A stretch of DNA of 64,000 bases from an uncultured SAR116 cluster alpha proteobacterium (GTDB lineage: Bacteria > Pseudomonadota > Alphaproteobacteria > Puniceispirillales > Marisalimonadaceae). The notes under the pieces are model-generated. The model was given only the letters and a program-made list of their open reading frames with translations, had not been told where the DNA came from and ran no database searches. Made by a program: the position numbers and the translations under genes. The stretch lies in NCBI GenBank assembly GCA_902543145.1, contig CACBXG010000001.1, positions 124,001 to 188,000 of the forward strand, in the 5' to 3' direction. Below are positions 2,956-56,131 of the stretch, piece after piece. Within the stretch, counting starts at the first letter, position 1. Every line of letters starts with the position of its first letter.

Positions 2956-4593
2956 ATGCTTCAAAAATTGAATAATTTTGAAGAGCTATGTCTCTCATTT
3001 AAATGGAATATTCCAGAATTTTACAATATAGCGTCTGATACTGTTGACCAGGATATTTATCAAAATAGGATTGCATTAATTAATTTTTTACAAGACGGCA
3101 AGATAGAGGAATGGTCTTTTATTGATATAAAAAGATATGCAAACAAACTTGCTAATGTTTTTGATCATTTTCATCTTGAGGCCAACGCAAGGGTTGGTAT
3201 TATTTTAGGTCAATGTCCTGAAACTGCAATTGCACATATGGCTTGCTTCAAGTCTGGAAAAATTTCAATACCTTTGTTTAATTTATTTGGAACAGATGCA
3301 TTACATTATCGTTTGTTGAATTCTAGGGCATCCTTGGTGATTTGCGATAATATTGGCTTAAATAAAATTTTTGAAATTAAAGATAGATTACCAGATTTAA
3401 AAAAAATAATTTGTATAGATAGTAATGACGAAAAAAATAATGTTTTTAATTTTAAAAAATTACAAGAACAGGCCTCAGACAGTTATTCTACAAAAAAAAC
3501 AAAAGCATCAGATCCCGCATTAATAATTTATACCTCTGGAACAACAGGTGGACCTAAAGGTGCTTTACTCCCTCATAGATCATTGTTAGGACATATACCA
3601 GGAGTAGAAATTCCTCATGAGTTTTTATCTTCATCTGAACCAGTTACAGATTTGTTTTGGACACCAGCTGACTGGGCATGGATAGGTGGGTTGTTTGATG
3701 TACTCCTTCCAGCATGGCATTTTGGTATTCCTGTAGTAAGTTACAGATCTCAAAAATTCGATCCTGAAGTTACTTTTGATTTAATATCAAAGCTAGAGAT
3801 AAAAAATACTTTCTTGCCACCCACTGCACTTAAAATGATGAAATCATTTAATCCCTCTAGAACAGTAAAAAACTTGAAATTAAGAACTGTTGGCTCAGGT
3901 GGTGAAGCTCTTGGAGAAGATCTGCTAGAGTGGGGCAAAAAAATTTTAGGGGTTGGCATTAATGAATTTTATGGTCAAACAGAATGTAATTTAACAGTCT
4001 CGAATTGTGGAGCAATTATGCCAACTAGACAAGGTTCAATTGGTAAACCCGTTCCCGGTCATGAAGTTAGAATAATTAACGAAAATGGAGAATTTATCAA
4101 AGAACCTGGATTAGATGGAGAAATAATAGTCAAATCTGATACCCCTGTATCTTTTTTAAAATACTGGGAAAATGATAAAGCAACAAAACAAAAAGTTATG
4201 GATGGTTGGCTCTACACTGGCGATTTTGCCTATAAGGATGAGGAGGGTTATTTTTATTTCAAAGGTAGAAAAGATGATATTATCAATACCTCAGGTTATA
4301 GGGTTGGACCAAGTGAAGTAGAAGATGCTGTGCTTTCTCATCCCAAAGTTAGTATGGTTGCAGTGATTGGCATTCCAGATAAATTAAGAGGTCATATCAT
4401 AAAAGCTTATGTTGTTCCTAGGGATCATAATAATGTTTTAGCTGAAAATGAAATATTAAAACAATCCATCCAAAATCATGTAAAATTTAAGTTGGCTGCT
4501 CATGAATATCCTCGACTTATAGAGTTTGTTCACGAATTACCTTTAACAACTACAGGAAAAATTATCCGTAAAGATTTAAGAGAAAATAATTAA
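2956..4593 (+). CDS. AMP-forming acyl-CoA synthetase (medium-chain/AcsM-like)
   Basis: The gene encodes a 545-residue adenylate-forming enzyme that would activate a carboxylic acid to its CoA thioester with ATP. The AMP/phosphate loop YTSGTTGGPKG starts at residue 192. The adenine motif YGQTE, the hinge region YTGDFAYKDEEG/GRKDDIINTSGYR (near 437-449) and the C-terminal lysine of TTTGKI (K535) are all present, so it looks fully active. Length and the WTPADWAWIGG segment fit the acetyl/medium-chain ACSM branch. The acid itself cannot be read from sequence. An AAGGAAAGG ribosome site lies upstream. It is followed 128 bp later by metY, which has its own candidate promoter. Confidence 0.85.
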   Translation: MLQKLNNFEELCLSFKWNIPEFYNIASDTVDQDIYQNRIALINFLQDGKIEEWSFIDIKRYANKLANVFDHFHLEANARVGIILGQCPETAIAHMACFKSGKISIPLFNLFGTDALHYRLLNSRASLVICDNIGLNKIFEIKDRLPDLKKIICIDSNDEKNNVFNFKKLQEQASDSYSTKKTKASDPALIIYTSGTTGGPKGALLPHRSLLGHIPGVEIPHEFLSSSEPVTDLFWTPADWAWIGGLFDVLLPAWHFGIPVVSYRSQKFDPEVTFDLISKLEIKNTFLPPTALKMMKSFNPSRTVKNLKLRTVGSGGEALGEDLLEWGKKILGVGINEFYGQTECNLTVSNCGAIMPTRQGSIGKPVPGHEVRIINENGEFIKEPGLDGEIIVKSDTPVSFLKYWENDKATKQKVMDGWLYTGDFAYKDEEGYFYFKGRKDDIINTSGYRVGPSEVEDAVLSHPKVSMVAVIGIPDKLRGHIIKAYVVPRDHNNVLAENEILKQSIQNHVKFKLAAHEYPRLIEFVHELPLTTTGKIIRKDLRENN

Positions 4594-6849: not shown

Positions 6850-8430
6850 ATGAACGAAAAAAATTACTTCTTATTTAATAATTCTGAAAATCCAGATCAT
6901 TGGAAAATTTCTAAAATTATCCTAGATCAATGCAAGAAATATCCAAAAAGAGAAATTATCGAATTTATAAATGGTCCAAAATGGACTTTCCATGACCTAA
7001 AAATTAAATCTTTAAAAAAAGCTCAAATTTTAAAAGAATTGAGTTTAAATCAGGGTGACAATTTAACAGTGTTAATAGAAGACCCAAAAGAATTCATCCT
7101 ATATTGGATAGCATGCAGCTTTATAGGAGTTATGTTTGTAGCTATCAATACTGCTATAAAAGGAAATGTATTATTACATCAAATTAAGACATCTAAATCA
7201 AAAAATGTTCTTGTTGAAGATCAATTTTTTCACGAAGTAAAAAGCTTGGTTAATCTTCATAAATTAGAAGTTGAAATTTTAAATTGTAAAGATTTAAATG
7301 ACAAAGATCTTTTGAATGAAGACGAGATTATTTCAGGAAAATTAAGTGACAACGTTTGTACAATGTTTACAAGCGGAACATCAGGGCCTTCTAAAGGAGT
7401 TATGATGCCCAATGCACATTGTGTTTTGTTTGCTATAGGAACAATTGAAAATTACAACTTAAGAAATAATCACATTTTTTACATCTCTTTACCCTTATTC
7501 CATGCAAATGGATTATTTATGCAACTTTTAGCATGCATTATGACTGGTGCAAAAGCAGTTATAAGAACTAGATTCTCAGCCTCAAATTGGCTTAAAGATA
7601 TCAGAAAGTATAATATAACTCATACTAATATGTTAGGTGCTATAGCTGCGTTTATTGTTGCACAACCTCCTACTAAATACGATAAAGATCATAATTTAGA
7701 AGTTATTGGTTCAGCGCCGTTGCCAAGTGAACCTGAAAAAATTTTTAGAAATAGATTTGGTGTAAAATATGTATTACCGCTTTATGGCATGACAGAAGTT
7801 AATATTCCAATATATGGTTTAAAAAGTGAAATAGGTAATGGCAGGTGCGGAAAATTATATGATAAATATTTTGAGGTTGAAATTAGAGACCCTGAGAAAG
7901 ATACACCTGTTAATGATGGCTTGGTTGGTGAAATAGTTGTAAGACCAAAACAACCCTTTGGTTTTATGTCTGGTTATTTAGGAATGCCAGAGAAAACTGT
8001 AGAAAGTTGGAGAAATTTCTGGTTTCATACTGGTGATGCAGGGATTAGAGAAAAGTCAGGTCACTTTGTTTTTGTAGACAGAATTAAGGATTGTATTAGA
8101 AAAAGAGGTGAAAATATTTCCTCATACGAAGTTGAACAAGCTTTTTTAGAAATACCATTTATTACTGAAGCAGCTGCATATGCAATTTCAGCTGATGGAG
8201 GCGATGGAATGGAAGATGAAGTTATGGTAGCCTTGATGACTGATAATAAAACTAATATAGATTTTGATGAATTACTTGAAAAAATAAAAATAAATTTAGC
8301 TAAGTTTGCCATACCCAAATATATAAGGGTAATGAGAGAGTTTCCAAAAACACAAACAGGTAAAATTCAAAAAAACAAGCTACGAGAAGAAGGGGTTACT
8401 ATAGATACTTGGCAAAATAAAAATATTTAA
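6850..8430 (+). CDS. AMP-dependent acyl-CoA ligase (CaiC-like)
   Basis: The gene encodes a 526-residue class I adenylate-forming ligase. The nucleotide loop TSGTSGPSKG begins at residue 174. It has YGMTE, the hinge FHTGDAG, and KDCIRKRGENISSYEVE, which is the form seen in crotonobetaine/carnitine-CoA ligases. A C-terminal TQTGKIQKNKLR carries the catalytic lysine. It would form a CoA thioester of a small organic acid with AMP release. It is only distantly like the first ligase at 2956, so the operon holds two different acid-activating enzymes. No carnitine genes are in view, so the substrate stays open. Confidence 0.8.
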   Translation: MNEKNYFLFNNSENPDHWKISKIILDQCKKYPKREIIEFINGPKWTFHDLKIKSLKKAQILKELSLNQGDNLTVLIEDPKEFILYWIACSFIGVMFVAINTAIKGNVLLHQIKTSKSKNVLVEDQFFHEVKSLVNLHKLEVEILNCKDLNDKDLLNEDEIISGKLSDNVCTMFTSGTSGPSKGVMMPNAHCVLFAIGTIENYNLRNNHIFYISLPLFHANGLFMQLLACIMTGAKAVIRTRFSASNWLKDIRKYNITHTNMLGAIAAFIVAQPPTKYDKDHNLEVIGSAPLPSEPEKIFRNRFGVKYVLPLYGMTEVNIPIYGLKSEIGNGRCGKLYDKYFEVEIRDPEKDTPVNDGLVGEIVVRPKQPFGFMSGYLGMPEKTVESWRNFWFHTGDAGIREKSGHFVFVDRIKDCIRKRGENISSYEVEQAFLEIPFITEAAAYAISADGGDGMEDEVMVALMTDNKTNIDFDELLEKIKINLAKFAIPKYIRVMREFPKTQTGKIQKNKLREEGVTIDTWQNKNI

Positions 8431-47247: not shown

Positions 47248-47907
47248 ATGACCGATGTGTTAATAGCACCGTCAATATTATCATCAAATTTTTCATGTTT
47301 AGCTGATGAAATTAAAGCTATTGATAAAGCAGGTGCAGATTGGATACATTTGGATGTAATGGACGGTCATTTCGTGCCAAATCTTACATTTGGTCCACCA
47401 ATTATCAAATCTATAAGAGATTATACAAAAAAACCTTTCGATGCACATTTAATGGTTTCTAATCCAGATGATCTTCTAGAAGAATATGTTAGTGCTGGAG
47501 TTAATATTATAACTGTACATAAAGAAGTTACTCCTCATTTAGATAGAACTTTGAATCGTATTCGTGAATTAGGATGTAAAGCTGGAATTTCTATTAATCC
47601 TGCCACGTCTATTTCAGGACTAGAGTTTTTATTAGAAAAATTAGATCTTATTCTTATAATGTCGGTTAATCCAGGTTTTGGTGGTCAAGTGTTTATAGAA
47701 TCATCTTTGAATAAAATTAGATCAGTTAGAGAATTAGTAAACGATAAACCTATCAAGATACAGGTTGATGGTGGGATTAATAGGATGGTAGCGCCTAGGG
47801 TAATTGATGCAGGTGCAAATGTAATTGTTGCAGGTTCAGCTGTCTTTAATGGCGATAGTGAAGAGAGTTATTCAAAGAATATTAAAGCTCTTCGTTATAA
47901 AATTTAA
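47248..47907 (+). CDS. rpe: Ribulose-phosphate 3-epimerase
   Basis: This is a 219-residue TIM barrel interconverting ribulose and xylulose 5-phosphate. APSILSSNF, HLDVMDGHFVPNLTFGP, MSVNPGFGGQ and VDGGIN carry the metal ligands and catalytic aspartates. It feeds the pentose branch with transketolase and precedes gph by 3 bp, a common bacterial pair. Confidence 0.95.
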   Translation: MTDVLIAPSILSSNFSCLADEIKAIDKAGADWIHLDVMDGHFVPNLTFGPPIIKSIRDYTKKPFDAHLMVSNPDDLLEEYVSAGVNIITVHKEVTPHLDRTLNRIRELGCKAGISINPATSISGLEFLLEKLDLILIMSVNPGFGGQVFIESSLNKIRSVRELVNDKPIKIQVDGGINRMVAPRVIDAGANVIVAGSAVFNGDSEESYSKNIKALRYKI

Positions 47908-47910
47908 AAT

Positions 47911-48573
47911 ATGAAAAAAATAAATTTTAATATTATTTTTGATCTAGATGGAACTTTAGTTCATTCAGTTCCTGATATGCACTATGCCATAAACAAAACT
48001 TTAAATAAATATAATTTAAAAAATATCTCTGAAGGAAAATTACAAACTTTTGTAGGCGAAGGTATGTTGTCTTTATCAAAAAAAGTAGTTGATTTTTGTG
48101 GAGGAGATCAAAGTTTATATGAAGTAATTTTTAATAGTTATAGGCAAAACTATTCAGAACAACCTTACAAATATAGCACTTTAATGCCTGGGGTAATGGA
48201 GACCCTAAATTTCTTTTATGAACAAAAAATTCCAATGGGTATTTGTACAAATAAAAGACAATTTGTAACTGAAAAATTAATTGAAGAAATGAGTTTAAAA
48301 AAATTTTTTACCATAGTTGTTGGGGCAAGAAATAATATTCCATTAAAACCAAAGCCTAATATGTTGTTATTAGCAATGGAAGGTTTTAAAACAAGAAACA
48401 AAGTGTTTTACATGGTTGGTGATACATCAAATGATATAGATGCAGCTAAAGCAGCTAATATAAAATCAATTGTGGTTGCAGGCGGTTACACTGATAAGGA
48501 TGTTAACAAACTTGGAGCAACTCATACCATTAAAAATATGAAAGATATAATCAAACTTTTAGACTTATCTTAA
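47911..48573 (+). CDS. gph: Phosphoglycolate phosphatase-type HAD hydrolase
   Basis: This is a 220-residue HAD phosphatase with the nucleophile in IIFDLDGTLVHSVPDM, CTNKRQF (motif II), KPKPNM (motif III) and VGDTSNDIDAAKAA (motif IV). The rpe-gph order is typical of phosphoglycolate phosphatase, although other small sugar phosphates are possible substrates. It ends convergently with the short-chain dehydrogenase, overlapping by 4 bp. Confidence 0.85.
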   Translation: MKKINFNIIFDLDGTLVHSVPDMHYAINKTLNKYNLKNISEGKLQTFVGEGMLSLSKKVVDFCGGDQSLYEVIFNSYRQNYSEQPYKYSTLMPGVMETLNFFYEQKIPMGICTNKRQFVTEKLIEEMSLKKFFTIVVGARNNIPLKPKPNMLLLAMEGFKTRNKVFYMVGDTSNDIDAAKAANIKSIVVAGGYTDKDVNKLGATHTIKNMKDIIKLLDLS

Positions 48574-49490
48574 ATTGGATCCCAGCTGAAAACATCGCCA
48601 CTTCTTTCATTAGGCGTCATTGAATTTTTAAATGAGGGAAGAGCTCTTTCAGCAATTTGTTGTGGTGTCCACCCTGTTTCTGAATGAACGCTTTTTATAG
48701 GTCTATTTTGATTATAAATAAATAATTCATTCAATCTTGCACTAAAGATTTGTCCACTTACATCTTTAGCGGCTTCAGATACTAAAAAAACAGCTAAAGG
48801 GGCGTTAGTTTCAGGGGTCATTTTCTTTAATCTTTCAACTCTTTCTTTTTCAGCTTCAGTATTTGAAGGTATAGAATTGGTCATTCTACTCCAGGCAAAA
48901 GGTGCAATACAATTTGATCTAACATTAAATCTACTCATATCTAAGGAAATGGATTTTGATAATCCAGCAATTCCTAATTTTGCAGCTGAGTAATTTGCTT
49001 GACCAAAATTTCCTATTAATCCCGATGTACTTGTCATATGTACATAAGCTCCTGAATTTTGTTCTCTAAAAAAAGGAGCAGCAGCCCTACTTACATAAAA
49101 GCTACCATTTAGATGAACATTTATTACATCATTCCAATCTGATGGTTCCATTTTATGGAAAATTGTGTCTCTTAAAATACCAGCGTTGTTTATAACAATA
49201 TCTAATCTACCATAAGTATCTAATGCTTTTTTTATTATTAGTTGTGCACTATCCCATGAAGAAACACTATCATTACTAATTATAGCTTTTCCACCTTTTT
49301 GAGTGATTAATCCTACTGTTTCTTGTGCTGGAGATTCAGATCCTCCCTCGCCAGTTAATGAAACACCTATATCATTTACAACAATTGAAACTCCTTCTTT
49401 TGCAAGAGCAAGAGCTATTTCACGTCCAATTCCGCCACCAGCTCCAGTTACAACGGCTACTTTATCTTTTAATCCTAAATCCATATCCAT
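48570..49490 (-). CDS. Short-chain dehydrogenase/reductase (hydroxyacyl-CoA-dehydrogenase-like)
   Basis: This 306-residue SDR has the nucleotide site VVTGAGGGIGREIALAL, the NNAG motif, and active-site Tyr and Lys in NYSAAKLG. The inserted NDIGVSLTGEGGSES and the long C-terminal part resemble the hydroxyacyl-CoA dehydrogenase domain of multifunctional beta-oxidation enzymes. An AAGGGA ribosome site lies eight bases before the ATG. It stands alone on the minus strand, so the substrate is open. Confidence 0.8.
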   Translation of the reverse strand: MDMDLGLKDKVAVVTGAGGGIGREIALALAKEGVSIVVNDIGVSLTGEGGSESPAQETVGLITQKGGKAIISNDSVSSWDSAQLIIKKALDTYGRLDIVINNAGILRDTIFHKMEPSDWNDVINVHLNGSFYVSRAAAPFFREQNSGAYVHMTSTSGLIGNFGQANYSAAKLGIAGLSKSISLDMSRFNVRSNCIAPFAWSRMTNSIPSNTEAEKERVERLKKMTPETNAPLAVFLVSEAAKDVSGQIFSARLNELFIYNQNRPIKSVHSETGWTPQQIAERALPSFKNSMTPNERSGDVFSWDPI

Positions 49491-49807: not shown

Positions 49808-49884
49808 GAACTCGTAGCTCATCTGGATAGAGCACCAAATTCCTAATTTGGGGGTAGCAGGTTCGAGTCCTGCCGGGTTCACCA
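49808..49884 (+). tRNA. tRNA-Arg (anticodon CCU)
   Basis: This 77-nt gene folds into a full cloverleaf. The acceptor GAACTCG pairs with CGGGTTC, the D-arm is GCTC/GAGC, and the anticodon stem CCAAA/TTTGG encloses TTCCTAA with CCT at the anticodon positions. The T-arm is GCAGG, loop TTCGAGT, CCTGC, and the CCA end is encoded. It reads AGG codons. No integrase gene or duplicated 3' end is visible beside it. Confidence 0.95.
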
Positions 49885-50316
49885 CACAATTTGAGACATA
49901 AATAAATCATTAAATCAAGTCAAACTTAATTTTTTTATTTTTTATGAAATATACTGAGTTGAATATTTTTTTAGATTTCAAAGACAACATGTAAATATTT
50001 AAGCCATTATAGAATACATATAAAAAATAGATTTGATAGCAAATCAAACAACTTACTGAATGATATGTCTAAATGTCATTTTTGTTATAAATCACCAAGT
50101 TTCTAAAATTTTTTTTATTACTATCCTAAAGATTATCTTGGCATAAAACATAATGTTCATCTTTTCTTTTATCGGAATTGAATACACGATAAAAACTACT
50201 GTACTACTAATTCTTAATGCTCAGTTCATTGTCTAAATTTAGACTTTCTATTAATTAATAAATTAATTATTAAAAATTGAAATTTATACCAAATAGAAAA
50301 TTATTTTTCCCTACTT
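49885..50316. other. AT-rich spacer after tRNA-Arg
   Basis: I see no gene. Contents are a T-rich run soon after the tRNA, a weak hairpin (GATTTG, ATAG, CAAATC at 50030-50045) and a 14-bp palindrome GTCTAAATTTAGAC at 50231-50244. The stretch AAAAATTGAAATTTATA at 50272-50288 recurs with one change at 52882-52898, so the far end may be part of the same old duplication as repeats A and B. Confidence 0.4.
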
Positions 50317-50559
50317 CTAAGTAAGACAAAGGAGTAATTTTATAGATAATTTTTTTCTTTTGAGTGTTATTTTTGAATTATTTAAAATATTTTTAGAAAA
50401 ATTTTTGAAGCCATCACTACTGGAAGAAAAAATTGATTTTAAATAATTTGTAATTTTATCGTTATATCCATAATGATTAAATAACTTAGAAGCAAATTTT
50501 TTAATATCATCTGCAAATGCATTTTTTGGATTGTTAATTGTAGTAATTACAATTAACAT
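50317..50559 (-). CDS. Doubtful 80-residue reading frame
   Basis: This minus-strand frame starts at ATG 50559. The product begins LIVITTINNPKNAFA, which could be a weak export signal, then DDIKKFASKLFNHYGY and a serine/lysine-rich remainder. I recognise no family, and there is no clear ribosome site. It lies in the AT-rich spacer, where chance frames of this size are common, so it may not be a gene; a decayed gene fragment is equally possible. Confidence 0.25.
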   Translation of the reverse strand: MLIVITTINNPKNAFADDIKKFASKLFNHYGYNDKITNYLKSIFSSSSDGFKNFSKNILNNSKITLKRKKLSIKLLLCLT

Positions 50560-50578
50560 AAAAGAAGAATGATTTAAT

Positions 50579-50735
50579 ATAATATTTCAAATTTTCAATA
50601 TACTGAGTTAGATCCTTAAAATTAGAACTAAAAGTTTTTAAGAGTCAAAATTTGAAATAATAAATCTTTCAATTTATATTGCGTTATCTGATAATTATAT
50701 AATTTACTTAGATCAAGAAAAGATTTTCTTAATAA
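50579..50735 (+). repeat. Diverged direct repeat, copy A, upstream of DCC gene
   Basis: This segment of about 157 bp recurs at 53262-53405. The best-conserved core (50656-50702) matches 43 of 47 positions with copy B and contains the dyad TTATCTGATAA (50684-50694) followed by a TATAAT-like stretch. It lies about 80 bp before the DCC-HTTM genes, so it may act as a promoter/operator. Confidence 0.75.
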
Positions 50736-50813
50736 AGATTAAATTAATTTACACTTATTTATACTTTTTTTTAATATTGATTCTAATTTATTTATGCTTT
50801 ATAGGAATTATTA

Positions 50814-51221
50814 ATGAAAATTGAAGATGTAATTTTATATGATGGAGTTTGCATTCTTTGCAATAAATGGGTTTCATTTATTATCAGAAACGACAAAAAT
50901 AAAAGATTTAAGTTTGCTCCAATTCAATCAAAGTTTGCTTCTAAAATTATCAATGAATTTGGCGGTGATACAAAAAATATTGATACTATATTCCTGATTA
51001 AATCAAATGAAGTATATACAAAGTTTCAAGCTTCAACGTATGCTTTGTATTCTGTAAATAAAATTTTCATTTTTATTTATGCGCTTAATATGATTTTACC
51101 TAAAGCATTATTAGATTTTTTTTATGATTTTGTAGGCTCAAGAAGATATAAAATATTTGGTAAATTTAATTCATGTCCTCTACCAGATCCTAAAATAAAA
51201 GATAGATTTATAAATGATTGA
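50814..51221 (+). CDS. DCC-family thiol-disulfide oxidoreductase-like protein
   Basis: This is a 135-residue protein with the family start ILYDGVCILC, giving a CxxC pair at Cys13 and Cys16. FAPIQSKFA and VGSRRYKIFGKF follow, as usual for DUF393/DCC proteins. Its 3' end overlaps the HTTM gene by 8 bp, so the two are made together; DCC and HTTM genes or domains are often found paired. It is only distantly similar to the DCC protein at 18077. The redox substrate is unknown. Confidence 0.85.
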   Translation: MKIEDVILYDGVCILCNKWVSFIIRNDKNKRFKFAPIQSKFASKIINEFGGDTKNIDTIFLIKSNEVYTKFQASTYALYSVNKIFIFIYALNMILPKALLDFFYDFVGSRRYKIFGKFNSCPLPDPKIKDRFIND

Positions 51222-52677
51222 TGTTATCAACATTGAACAATTTAGTTCAATAGTTAGAATTTTATTTTGTATAATTTTTTTTAACAAAATTTATTTTTCA
51301 ATAAAGGGATTTGATTTTCACTGGGCTCATATAGAAAACATAAAAGAAAGAAAACTAATTTATTTTTTATTATGTCTTAGTTTATTTTTTTTAGTGTTAC
51401 TATTTGTTGGTTTTTTAACAAAATTTTCTTCTGTAATCATATTACTTATTTATTTTTACACTTTTATAAGGTCTTCTTTATTTAGCTTGGAAGATACTTA
51501 TCTAAGCTCTTTGTCAATTTATGTTGCTTTATCAAATAATTTTTATTTCTCGCTAGATAAGTTATTGGGACTTAATAATATGATTTTTAATAGTTATTTT
51601 TTTAATATTCAATTATTTCCTGAGATGATAGTTTCTATATTTTTTTCATTAATTTTCTTTTCTTCAGCATGTGAAAAACTTAGATCAAAAATGTGGAGAA
51701 GTGGATTAGCTGTTAAATATTTTTTTATACACCCAAAATTCCGAAAAGTTAATTTAGAGTTTTTAGGAAATAGAAAACTTTTTTCAACAATATCAGGAAT
51801 GATTGTGATGTCTTCTCAAGGTCTAATATTTTTTTGCTTATTTTTCCCTTCAAAATATGGTTTGATTGTTTTATTTTCATTATTAGTATTCAGTTTAATA
51901 CTGAGTATTTTTTTTCTATATGTTGGATTAGCAGAAGCTTGCATTTTACTTTTACTAACTCAAAGTTGTTTTTTTGTATTTTTGTGGGACATGAGTGTAC
52001 TTGAATATCTGCTGATTAATTTTAATAATTTTTCCGTATTAGAAGAATGTTTATTATTTTTTACTTTAATTTTAAGTTTTATCTTCTTCATAAATCAACT
52101 TTTCCCTCAAAAATATGAAACTATTGTTTTTAAAAATTCTTTTTTTAAATGGATCTTCAAATTACCTAGAATTTTTTTGGGTTTAGGTAGAGTAGGCGTC
52201 TACACTGAAGAACACTTATCTAATCCTATTGCCTTTAGAGTTTTTGCAACCTCAAAAAATAATAGAGTAAATGAGCTTTTTCAATTATATAATGATGATG
52301 GAACGCCGTACTTAAAAAAAGTTATATTACTTCCATGTGTTTTTATGTGTATTGCTTTTAAAATTCATGATATTTTAATAGAGCTTGATGAAAAAGGGAG
52401 ATTATCTCCGAGTAATTCAAAATTTTTTGATGGTTATATTCGTTTTCTTTTAAAAGAAGAAAATATTGATTTTACAAAAATAGAAAATATAACTTTCAAT
52501 ATTAATCAGTTAAACATTGATGAAGCGGTAAAAAAAAATATAGATTTGAATAAAAAAATGATTCCTCTACTAGAATTAAAAATTGTTTCTAATTTCAACA
52601 TCATTATACGTCCTTTAAAAAATAAATTACTTAATTACAGCTCTGTAAGAAAAAGATCAGAAAGATATAAAATGTAA
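51214..52677 (+). CDS. HTTM (vitamin-K-carboxylase-like) membrane protein
   Basis: This 487-residue protein has many hydrophobic segments in the first 310 residues and a soluble C-terminal part of about 180. HWAHIENIKERK near residue 30, the helix pattern LSLFFLVLLFVGFLTKFSS, and SACEKLRSKMWRSGLAVKYFF match the HTTM family, related to gamma-glutamyl carboxylase. Carboxylase activity is not shown for most bacterial members. Overlap with the DCC gene points to a membrane redox pair. Base composition is very AT-rich, like the flanks. Confidence 0.75.
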   Translation: MIDVINIEQFSSIVRILFCIIFFNKIYFSIKGFDFHWAHIENIKERKLIYFLLCLSLFFLVLLFVGFLTKFSSVIILLIYFYTFIRSSLFSLEDTYLSSLSIYVALSNNFYFSLDKLLGLNNMIFNSYFFNIQLFPEMIVSIFFSLIFFSSACEKLRSKMWRSGLAVKYFFIHPKFRKVNLEFLGNRKLFSTISGMIVMSSQGLIFFCLFFPSKYGLIVLFSLLVFSLILSIFFLYVGLAEACILLLLTQSCFFVFLWDMSVLEYLLINFNNFSVLEECLLFFTLILSFIFFINQLFPQKYETIVFKNSFFKWIFKLPRIFLGLGRVGVYTEEHLSNPIAFRVFATSKNNRVNELFQLYNDDGTPYLKKVILLPCVFMCIAFKIHDILIELDEKGRLSPSNSKFFDGYIRFLLKEENIDFTKIENITFNINQLNIDEAVKKNIDLNKKMIPLLELKIVSNFNIIIRPLKNKLLNYSSVRKRSERYKM

Positions 52678-53261
52678 ATATGATTTAAAGGTAATTGATT
52701 TCATTATGAATTAAAGTCAATATTAATTTCGCATATTAAAATATTCTATAAATTCATAAAATAATAAATTTTAGTACATGAAATCCTTTTGTTTGAGATC
52801 TAAGCATTAACTCAATATTTAAAAATTTTAAATATACTTCAATTTCACTGATACTAAGTTTATTTATAAATCAAGTTTTCCAAAAACTGAAATTTATATT
52901 GTTTTTCCCCATCAACATCAAAATCTTTTTAATATCAATAAATGTTAAGTTTCTTGTTTCCACAACTTTAACATCACTATTTATTAAAATATGGATCTTT
53001 TGTCGTCTGTATAATCTTATCCCTCTAAATTATAAATTAGTTCTCATATCCCTTTCCCCATTTTTTCAAAAGTATGTGAAAAAGTTTCCATTCATTTGAG
53101 TTGAAATCTAGTGTGAGAGTTTGTTTGAGTTTAGGTAATTGAATATTTATAATTTTTATAATATATCTTTTTAAAAAATTCAAAAATATAACTTATAAAT
53201 ATGTGACTTTAATTTGTAATTGTATTAATTAAAATTACATTAATAAAAAAATGAAACTTTT
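52678..53261. other. AT-rich spacer after HTTM gene
   Basis: I find no supported gene; a 66-codon plus-strand frame near 52899-53099 lacks a ribosome site and a recognisable product. The segment from about 52880 resembles the spacer near 50270, suggesting that it is part of a degraded duplication. Confidence 0.4.
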
Positions 53262-53405
53262 ATAATATTTCAACTTTTAAGAATACTTAATTTAAAACTT
53301 GAAATAAAAGCTTTATAGAGACAAATTTTTAAATAATAAATCTTTCAAGTTGTATTACATTATCTGATAATTATATAAACTTCGAGACAAAACAAAGGTT
53401 TTTAA
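53262..53405 (+). repeat. Diverged direct repeat, copy B, upstream of dehalogenase-like gene
   Basis: This is the second copy of the repeat at 50579-50735. Its core 53332-53378 includes the same dyad TTATCTGATAA (53360-53370) and ATTATATAA. It ends 20 bp before the next gene, consistent with a promoter or operator shared by two transcription units. Confidence 0.75.
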
Positions 53406-53425
53406 ATAAATTCTTAAGGGTCAAA

Positions 53426-54313
53426 ATGGCAATAAACTTTTTTATAGATTTTGAAATTTCCACACTTAAATTAAAAATTGGGTATATCAGATTTAGAAAA
53501 GCAGGTCATGGACCTGCTTTACTTATGTTGCATGGAAATCCACAAACACATGTAATGTGGCATAAAGTAGCTCCAGCTTTAACAAAGAAATTTACGATTA
53601 TTTGTCCAGACATTCCAGGTTATGGAAAATCCTATAAACCTAAAATATCTAAAGATCATGAAAACTACTCAAAAGTTAGCATGGCCTCTGATATGAATGA
53701 GTTAATGACTTTATTAGGACATAAAACATTTTACCTAGTTGGCCACGACCGAGGTGCAAGAATAGGTCATCGATTAGCCTTAAATTATCCTGACAAAGTT
53801 AAAAAAATAATGTTATTAGACATAATACCAACTATTGAACATTTTGAGAGAACTAACAAAGAATTTGCAATGGGTTACTATCATTGGTTTTGGTTGGCAC
53901 AGAAATATCCAATACTAGAGTCAGTAATTAACAAAGCACCTGAGGAGTGGTTTTTTGCGCATACTTCAAGAGAAAAAAAGGAGAAAGATTTTTTTGCACC
54001 AAGAGCATTAGCTGATTACTTGGAGTGTGTTAAAAATCCTGAAACTATTAGGTCTATTTGTGAGGATTATAGAGCGGCTGCATCTATTGATTTGAAAGAT
54101 GATGACATAAGTAGAAAACAAAATTTAAAAATTAAAATGCCAACACTAGTTTTGTGGGGTAAAAAAGGTAAGATAGATCAATGGTATGATCCCTTAACAA
54201 TCTGGCAAAAATATTGTGATCAAGAAGTTAGAGGTTATGGTGTTAATACAGGCCATTATTTAGCTGAAGAAAATCCTGATGAAATTATAAAAAGTATTAA
54301 AAACTTTTTTTAA
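53426..54313 (+). CDS. Alpha/beta hydrolase, fluoroacetate-dehalogenase-like
   Basis: This 295-residue hydrolase has LMLHGNPQTHVMWHKVAPAL, the nucleophile motif GHDRGARIGHRLAL with Asp108 followed by Arg109 and Arg112, LLDIIPT, and YHWFWLAQ with His153-Trp154. A catalytic His lies in GVNTGHYLAEENP. The Asp-Arg-x-x-Arg and His-Trp arrangement is that of fluoroacetate dehalogenases (hydrolysis of haloacetate to glycolate), and it separates this protein from serine esterases. An epoxide hydrolase or general haloacid role is still possible. An AAGGGTC ribosome site precedes the start. Confidence 0.8.
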   Translation: MAINFFIDFEISTLKLKIGYIRFRKAGHGPALLMLHGNPQTHVMWHKVAPALTKKFTIICPDIPGYGKSYKPKISKDHENYSKVSMASDMNELMTLLGHKTFYLVGHDRGARIGHRLALNYPDKVKKIMLLDIIPTIEHFERTNKEFAMGYYHWFWLAQKYPILESVINKAPEEWFFAHTSREKKEKDFFAPRALADYLECVKNPETIRSICEDYRAAASIDLKDDDISRKQNLKIKMPTLVLWGKKGKIDQWYDPLTIWQKYCDQEVRGYGVNTGHYLAEENPDEIIKSIKNFF

Positions 54314-54340
54314 ACAAAATAAATTGAGGTTGAAATTAAA

Positions 54341-56131
54341 ATGAATGAGATGCATCTGAAGAAAATGAATAACGATTTGCCAATATGGGATCTTTCAGAA
54401 ATATATAAAAACATTAAAGATCCTAAAATTAGTAGAGATATAAAGAATATTAGAGAGACAGCAAATAATTTTCTTAAAAAATGGAAAGGTAAGATAAATA
54501 ATTTAATTTCATCAGATTTTTTGTTTTGTATAAATGAATATCAAGAAATAAATGAAGCTATTTATAAGATCGCAACACATAGTAGTTTAACCTTTGCTAC
54601 AAATATGGAAGATCCTGAAATTTCTAAATATAACTCCTCTATATCAGACCAAATTACTGAAATTCTATCTACTCTCATTTTTGTTACATTAGAACTTTCA
54701 AAAGTTGATGATAATACAATTAAGAATTGGTTAAATGATAAAGAGGCAAAGAACTGGGAACCTTATCTCAATATATTAAGAAAAAGAAACCCTTATCTTC
54801 TTGATCCCCTTGTAGAAGAGATTTTAATAGAGAAATCTGCTACTGGTAGGTCAGCATGGATACGATTATTTGATGAGACATCTGCAGCATTGCGTTTTCC
54901 TTTCAAAAACAAATCGCTTACTGAAGCTGAAATTTTGAATTTGTTGTCTGATGCGGATCCAGAAACTAGAAAAATTGCAGGTAAATCACTTTCTGAAGTT
55001 TTAGAAAATAATAAACGTATTTTTGGAATGATACTTAATGTGATTTCTAGAGATAGATTTATCGAAGACAACAAAAGGGGGTTTAAAAGAATTATGTCCT
55101 CAAGAAATCTTGATAATGATGTTGAAGATGAAGTTGTAGATAAATTAGTAGATACAATTGATAAGGCTATGCCTAAACTTACCCATAGATATTATAAATG
55201 GAAAGCTAACCAATTTGGTCAGACCAGGTTAGATTGGTGGGATAGAAATGCACCATTGCCTCATTCTTCTGAAAATTTCATAAAATGGTCTGATGCTAAA
55301 GATATCATTTTAGATTCATTTTCTTCATTCCATCCAGAGATTTCTAATCTAGCAGAATTATTTTTTAAAAATAATTGGATAGATGCAAGCCTAAGAAAAG
55401 GTAAAGCATCAGGTGCTTTTGCTCATCCTTCAGTTCCGTCATTGCATCCATACATATTAGTAAATTATCAAGGTAAGATTAGAGATGTTATGACACTTGC
55501 ACATGAACTTGGTCATGGTGTCCACCAAATTCTTGCGGGTAAAAATGGATTATTAATGGCAGAAACACCTCTAACACTCGCTGAAACAGCATCAGTTTTC
55601 GGTGAAATGTTGGTGTTTAGAAAATTATTAGATGAGAGCTCAATTGCACAAAAAAAACAATTATTGTCTGGTAAAATAGAAGACATGTTAAATACTGTTG
55701 CTAGACAAATAGGGTTTCACCAATTTGAGGTCAAATTTCATGAGGCAAGAATAAAATCTGAATTAACACCTGATGAGATAAGTAATATTTGGATGGGGAC
55801 ACAGTCTCATGCTGTGGGTCCTCATATTAATCTTGGAGATGATTATAGATTTTTATGGGGATACATCCCTCACTTTGTTCATACCCCGTTTTATGTATAT
55901 GCTTATGCTTTTGGAGATAGTCTAGTAAATGCACTTTGGTATGCATATCAAAAAAGTGATAAAGATATTTTTTCTAATAAGTACATTGAAATGTTATCTT
56001 CAGGAGGGACAAAAAATCATAATGATCTACTTAAACCTTTTAATTTAAGTGCATATGATAATAGTTTTTGGGAAAAAGGTATTACAATGATAACTGAATT
56101 AATGGATGAGCTCGATGATTTGGGTAATTAA
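54341..56131 (+). CDS. pepF: Oligoendopeptidase F (M3 family)
   Basis: This is a 596-residue zinc peptidase with the HELGHG motif (His388, Glu389, His392), a downstream ETASVFGEML segment with the third zinc ligand, and GPHINLGDDYRFLWGYIPHFVHTPFY split over the C-terminal lobe. It cleaves oligopeptides in the cytoplasm. Length and motifs fit the M3B PepF group. It follows the dehalogenase-like gene by 27 bp and precedes the ABC1 kinase. Confidence 0.92.
   Translation: MNEMHLKKMNNDLPIWDLSEIYKNIKDPKISRDIKNIRETANNFLKKWKGKINNLISSDFLFCINEYQEINEAIYKIATHSSLTFATNMEDPEISKYNSSISDQITEILSTLIFVTLELSKVDDNTIKNWLNDKEAKNWEPYLNILRKRNPYLLDPLVEEILIEKSATGRSAWIRLFDETSAALRFPFKNKSLTEAEILNLLSDADPETRKIAGKSLSEVLENNKRIFGMILNVISRDRFIEDNKRGFKRIMSSRNLDNDVEDEVVDKLVDTIDKAMPKLTHRYYKWKANQFGQTRLDWWDRNAPLPHSSENFIKWSDAKDIILDSFSSFHPEISNLAELFFKNNWIDASLRKGKASGAFAHPSVPSLHPYILVNYQGKIRDVMTLAHELGHGVHQILAGKNGLLMAETPLTLAETASVFGEMLVFRKLLDESSIAQKKQLLSGKIEDMLNTVARQIGFHQFEVKFHEARIKSELTPDEISNIWMGTQSHAVGPHINLGDDYRFLWGYIPHFVHTPFYVYAYAFGDSLVNALWYAYQKSDKDIFSNKYIEMLSSGGTKNHNDLLKPFNLSAYDNSFWEKGITMITELMDELDDLGN

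Follow-up and report, generated by a model that had tools for sequence, protein, structure and literature searches.

The window, a stretch of DNA of 64,000 nucleotides, contains a variable interval whose left edge is a tRNA-Arg gene (CCT anticodon; 49808–49884, forward strand; ARAGORN and Rfam) that is syntenic in relatives. To its right lies the remnant of a small secreted-protein gene on the reverse strand (50236–50559), recognized by nhmmer and by open reading frames and protein alignment in relatives. A deletion of about 77 bp has disrupted the gene, leaving an open frame of 80 amino acids at 50317–50559 where relatives have about 138 amino acids, and its nhmmer match covers model positions 12–132 and 210–576, with 133–209 missing. 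The small secreted-looking protein is found genus-wide (relatives' loci L088–L099), has the conserved motif EKFA-KLFNHY-YDDK and reaches the threshold of no Pfam or PHROGs family; in one relative (G009) its gene has an in-frame stop. The genome of the window has a second, different small-gene start; the 4-kb contig that carries it (C46 of G000; L109, 3–203) also encodes a phage-type integrase (L109, 3046–4026). On the far side of the interval is the original neighbor, a forward-strand gene at 53426–54313. The sequence-only reading had called this gene dehalogenase-like; it encodes an alpha/beta-hydrolase by PF00561 (E 1.7e-34), and the haloalkane dehalogenase models of NCBIfam match it far below their cut-offs. 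A search of 22 same-genus relatives turned up orthologues of the hydrolase in 16, and in one further observation, the gene of G032 appeared to be frameshifted (L083, 6481–7366; two overlapping tblastn pieces).

Between the small gene and the hydrolase gene lie two forward-strand genes that had been described as a DCC-HTTM pair, a description that holds for its first half. The first open reading frame (50814–51221) encodes a DCC1-like thiol-disulfide oxidoreductase: it scores 86.9 bits against PF04134 (E 3e-24; cut-off 27.8) and has the DxxCxxC motif as DGVCILC. Among the genomes searched it has one relative (40%), at another place in G035. The second (51214–52677) encodes a polytopic membrane protein of 487 amino acids with about 9 hydrophobic segments and overlaps the DCC gene by 8 bases in an operon-like manner, so that one promoter would serve both. 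The HTTM label was not borne out, since PF05090 (27.7 bits being the cut-off) gave no match even at E 10 but did match control genomes. HTTM relatives were detected neither among the relatives, the order and the phylum sample nor in species genomes, plasmids, viral contigs or the PDB, and no HTTM gene is annotated beside DCC on six plasmids. The protein had no recognizable family, with no match in Pfam, NCBIfam, PADLOC, PHROGs or the PDB, and its gene was absent from 61 relatives, 136 genomes of the order and a 398-genome sample of the phylum. A structure prediction from the single sequence reached a pLDDT of 41 and was left unused. The membrane protein may be a very diverged HTTM-type protein. 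Neither a DCC-HTTM pair nor the tRNA-Arg-to-hydrolase locus turned up in the literature searched.

The two genes are flanked by a direct repeat that had been noticed upstream of the DCC gene and of the hydrolase gene, and this repeat is real. Copy 1 (50535–50736, forward) and copy 2 (53217–53410, forward) match over their length with gaps at about 75% identity (BLAST, E 1.2e-33), and 50616–50702 aligns with 53292–53378 without a gap at 85%. The local alignment score of the pair is 147, compared with a maximum of 41 among 500 dinucleotide shuffles, none of which reached it. The 47-bp cores differ at four positions (43/47 identical), as had been read, and both contain TTATCTGATAATTATATAA. A genome-wide search for the repeat found only these two copies in the 1.9-Mb draft, which is 76% complete. 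Copy 1, a putative duplicated divergent promoter region, comprises the first codons of the small gene, the promoter zone of that gene, a rightward promoter core and most of the hydrolase leader; copy 2 is the putative promoter region of the hydrolase gene itself. The homology may extend to about 50743 in copy 1 and to 53425 in copy 2. A continuation of copy 1 into hydrolase coding sequence gave no signal (91 of 500 shuffles did as well), and an assembly artefact is unlikely because about one position in four is different between the copies.

A further short match (50272–50288 and 52882–52898, 16 of 17 bases) had been taken to mean that a longer segment was duplicated. The match exists, lies at the collinear place and can be extended to 38–40 bp at 80%, but as proof of a longer duplication it is suggestive only, because 6 of 500 shuffles reached it. 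Its right-hand segment falls in the non-coding right part of the insert (52678–53216), where a profile of the relatives' intergenic region missed it (nhmmer) and a looser alignment gave no signal. On these alignments, a remnant of a second small-gene copy around 52859–52898 is possible.

Comparison with relatives that lack the pair shows what the repeat is. Seven same-genus genomes (G011, G008, G020, G032, G009, G015 and G001) have an empty site with the gene order gph, SDR, tRNA-Arg(CCT), small leftward gene, hydrolase and pepF, in which the tRNA-to-hydrolase interval measures 600–671 bp. In the four closest of them (G011, G008, G020 and G032), the single intergenic region matches both window copies, on the left over 50338–50707 with the small gene included, and on the right over the promoter part, 53222–53377 or further. 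The repeat sequence is thus present once at the empty site, the genes of the pair are absent from these genomes, and the repeat is the ancestral target sequence, duplicated around the pair. The suggestion that the repeats mark the insertion of the pair is therefore supported.

We consider it probable that both repeats derive from a single ancestral divergent promoter region and now flank an inserted pair of DCC and membrane-protein genes. The ancestral state would have been a single such region between the small leftward gene and the rightward hydrolase gene. The pair would then have come to lie inside the region, which is now present on both sides of it, either because a tandem duplication was opened by the cassette or because DNA carrying a copy of the region was integrated by crossover. 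The end of copy 1 falls at the position matching the start codon of the hydrolase or just short of it, and this copy would drive the new pair; copy 2 still adjoins the hydrolase gene and would drive it. Promoter activity in either direction, expression of the pair from copy 1 and the insertion step itself are inferred, the first of these from the pattern of conservation.

A tree built from 14 promoter regions placed the two copies as sisters, separated from all relatives at a support of 99.9/100, with a longer branch for copy 1 (0.29) than for copy 2 (0.17). This sister relation assigns the duplication to this lineage, although gene conversion could have produced the same appearance. Over about 200 columns the copies are 74% identical to each other and 66–71% identical to the close relatives compared; the difference between them, about 26%, comes close to that separating either copy from the relatives (29–34%), so that both the event and the descent are poorly timed. 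The third-position identity of the flanking genes to close relatives places the duplication at about the age of the species splits, and judging from these sequences it is not recent. The same identity is 0.75–0.83 on the left and mostly 0.83–0.92 on the right. This step lies between 47248–49490 and 53426–56131 of the window and suggests a recombination boundary; recombination with relatives has probably affected the right flank. It also fits a special case of the insertion route, in which another species of the genus supplied, by crossover, both the pair and a promoter copy that had already diverged. The locus does recombine, as seen in the small protein of G016, a mosaic with a G008-like N-terminal half and a G015-like C-terminal half (L073, 67–501). 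The tree, however, makes the two copies each other's closest relatives, which would require a donor among close kin that have not been sampled, and we regard this special case as possible but doubtful.

The identity between the copies varies block by block, from 0.77 at the small-gene start through 0.67 and 0.78 to 0.90 in the rightward promoter core and 0.54 in the leader. The core (50653–50702 in copy 1, forward strand, with the −10-like GATAATTATATAA, seen also in the alignment with relatives) is thus the most conserved part, with 45 of 50 positions identical compared with 54–78% elsewhere (Fisher p 0.0008, for a core picked after being seen), and selection appears to maintain it in both copies. 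The suggested location of the repeats, at the place of a promoter, is supported, and the core of copy 1 would serve the DCC gene. The segment GATAATTATAT, which resembles a −10-like box, is kept in all close relatives (as GATAGTTATAT in G008), and 16 bases upstream of the box, TTGATG is present in four of six close relatives, forming a fair −35/−10 pair; the window copies read TTCAAT and TTCAAG at the −35 place. For the small gene, inspection of the sequence suggests AGAGTCAAA (leftward, TTTGACTCT) as a fitting −35; it is retained in G036 and in each of the five close relatives whose sequence spans the entire region. In its place copy 2, which has no adjoining small gene, has AGAGACAAA; the small gene that adjoins copy 1 is itself the broken one. 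Sigma-70-like matches as such were not commoner here than in shuffles.

Within the core, both copies also keep the 11-mer dyad TTATCTGATAA, which led to the proposal that one regulator binds it as an operator and co-controls both units. Besides its place inside the most conserved block, the proposal can draw on 13 matches with up to one mismatch in the window, compared with a shuffle mean of 4.7. Exact sites, however, number only two in the window, and about 5–6 are expected by chance genome-wide. The orthologous upstream regions do not conserve both half-sites: the relatives read TTTCTAGATAA, TTTTTAGATAA, TTTCCAGATAA and TTAAAAGATAA, in which the right half GATAATTATAT is conserved and the left half is not, so that the −10 region seems to contain the dyad only incidentally. 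What the cores were said to keep, a dyad and a TATAAT-like box, is indeed shared by the copies, but only the −10-like half is shared with relatives, and common control by one regulator is unsupported and, in our judgment, very improbable.

Across the genus, the tRNA-Arg-to-hydrolase interval serves as a hotspot of insertion that has received mainly sugar and cell-envelope genes. Other genomes carry there rmlBACD-type sugar genes (G005), NeuB with an epimerase (G017), a DegT aminotransferase with a formyltransferase (G012), a DUF7424 protein (G021) or a HAD-like gene (G013 and G006), and the insert of G006 also has long open reading frames that by inspection resemble glycosyltransferases. Fragments of the tRNA 3' end lie inside the inserts of G006 (L110, about 4162–4176) and G021 (L081, about 7330–7363) and are possible old attachment sites; because of them, some of the hotspot insertions were probably made by integrases. 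In G006 the regions upstream of the small gene and of the hydrolase share no extended similarity, so that a duplicated promoter is no general feature of the hotspot. The window insert does not show the combination of an integrase and att repeats at its ends that characterizes an integrase-borne genomic island. A mobile element that moves the pair, with the repeats as its attachment sites or termini, is very improbable: the repeats do bracket a sporadic insertion in a tRNA-adjacent hotspot where other inserts carry tRNA 3' fragments, but their sequence belongs to the target and is present at empty sites, no integrase or transposase lies between them, the genome has no other copy, and 49885–53425 contains no tRNA fragment.

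Overall, the locus is an ordinary insertion with a duplicated promoter region, and it is well resolved. It offers an example of a new operon that would have been expressed at once by coming to lie downstream of a duplicated resident promoter, the old neighbor retaining its own, in an interval shown here to be a hotspot for variable genes in the genus. There is a slim chance that the case has a wider bearing, namely that hotspot insertion can duplicate the divergent promoter region already present, so that new genes receive a functional promoter and the neighbors are spared, and that the pair joins a redox protein with a membrane protein of an undescribed family.

Several known systems can be compared with this locus. 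The locus resembles DCC-HTTM gene pairs in the overlap of a DCC1-like gene with one that encodes a multi-pass membrane protein, but here this protein has no PF05090 match and no relative detected in the searches made. Insertions of the Campbell type or based on tandem duplication likewise leave direct repeats of the target flanking the new genes and both neighbors with their upstream sequence; the window repeats differ in being about 200 bp long and now only 75% identical, marking an old event. The tRNA-adjacent hotspots and flexible genomic islands of marine bacteria resemble the locus in having variable genes beside a tRNA between conserved flanks, whereas the window insert lies beyond the small gene, beside the hydrolase promoter, and is flanked by a duplicated target rather than by tRNA fragments.
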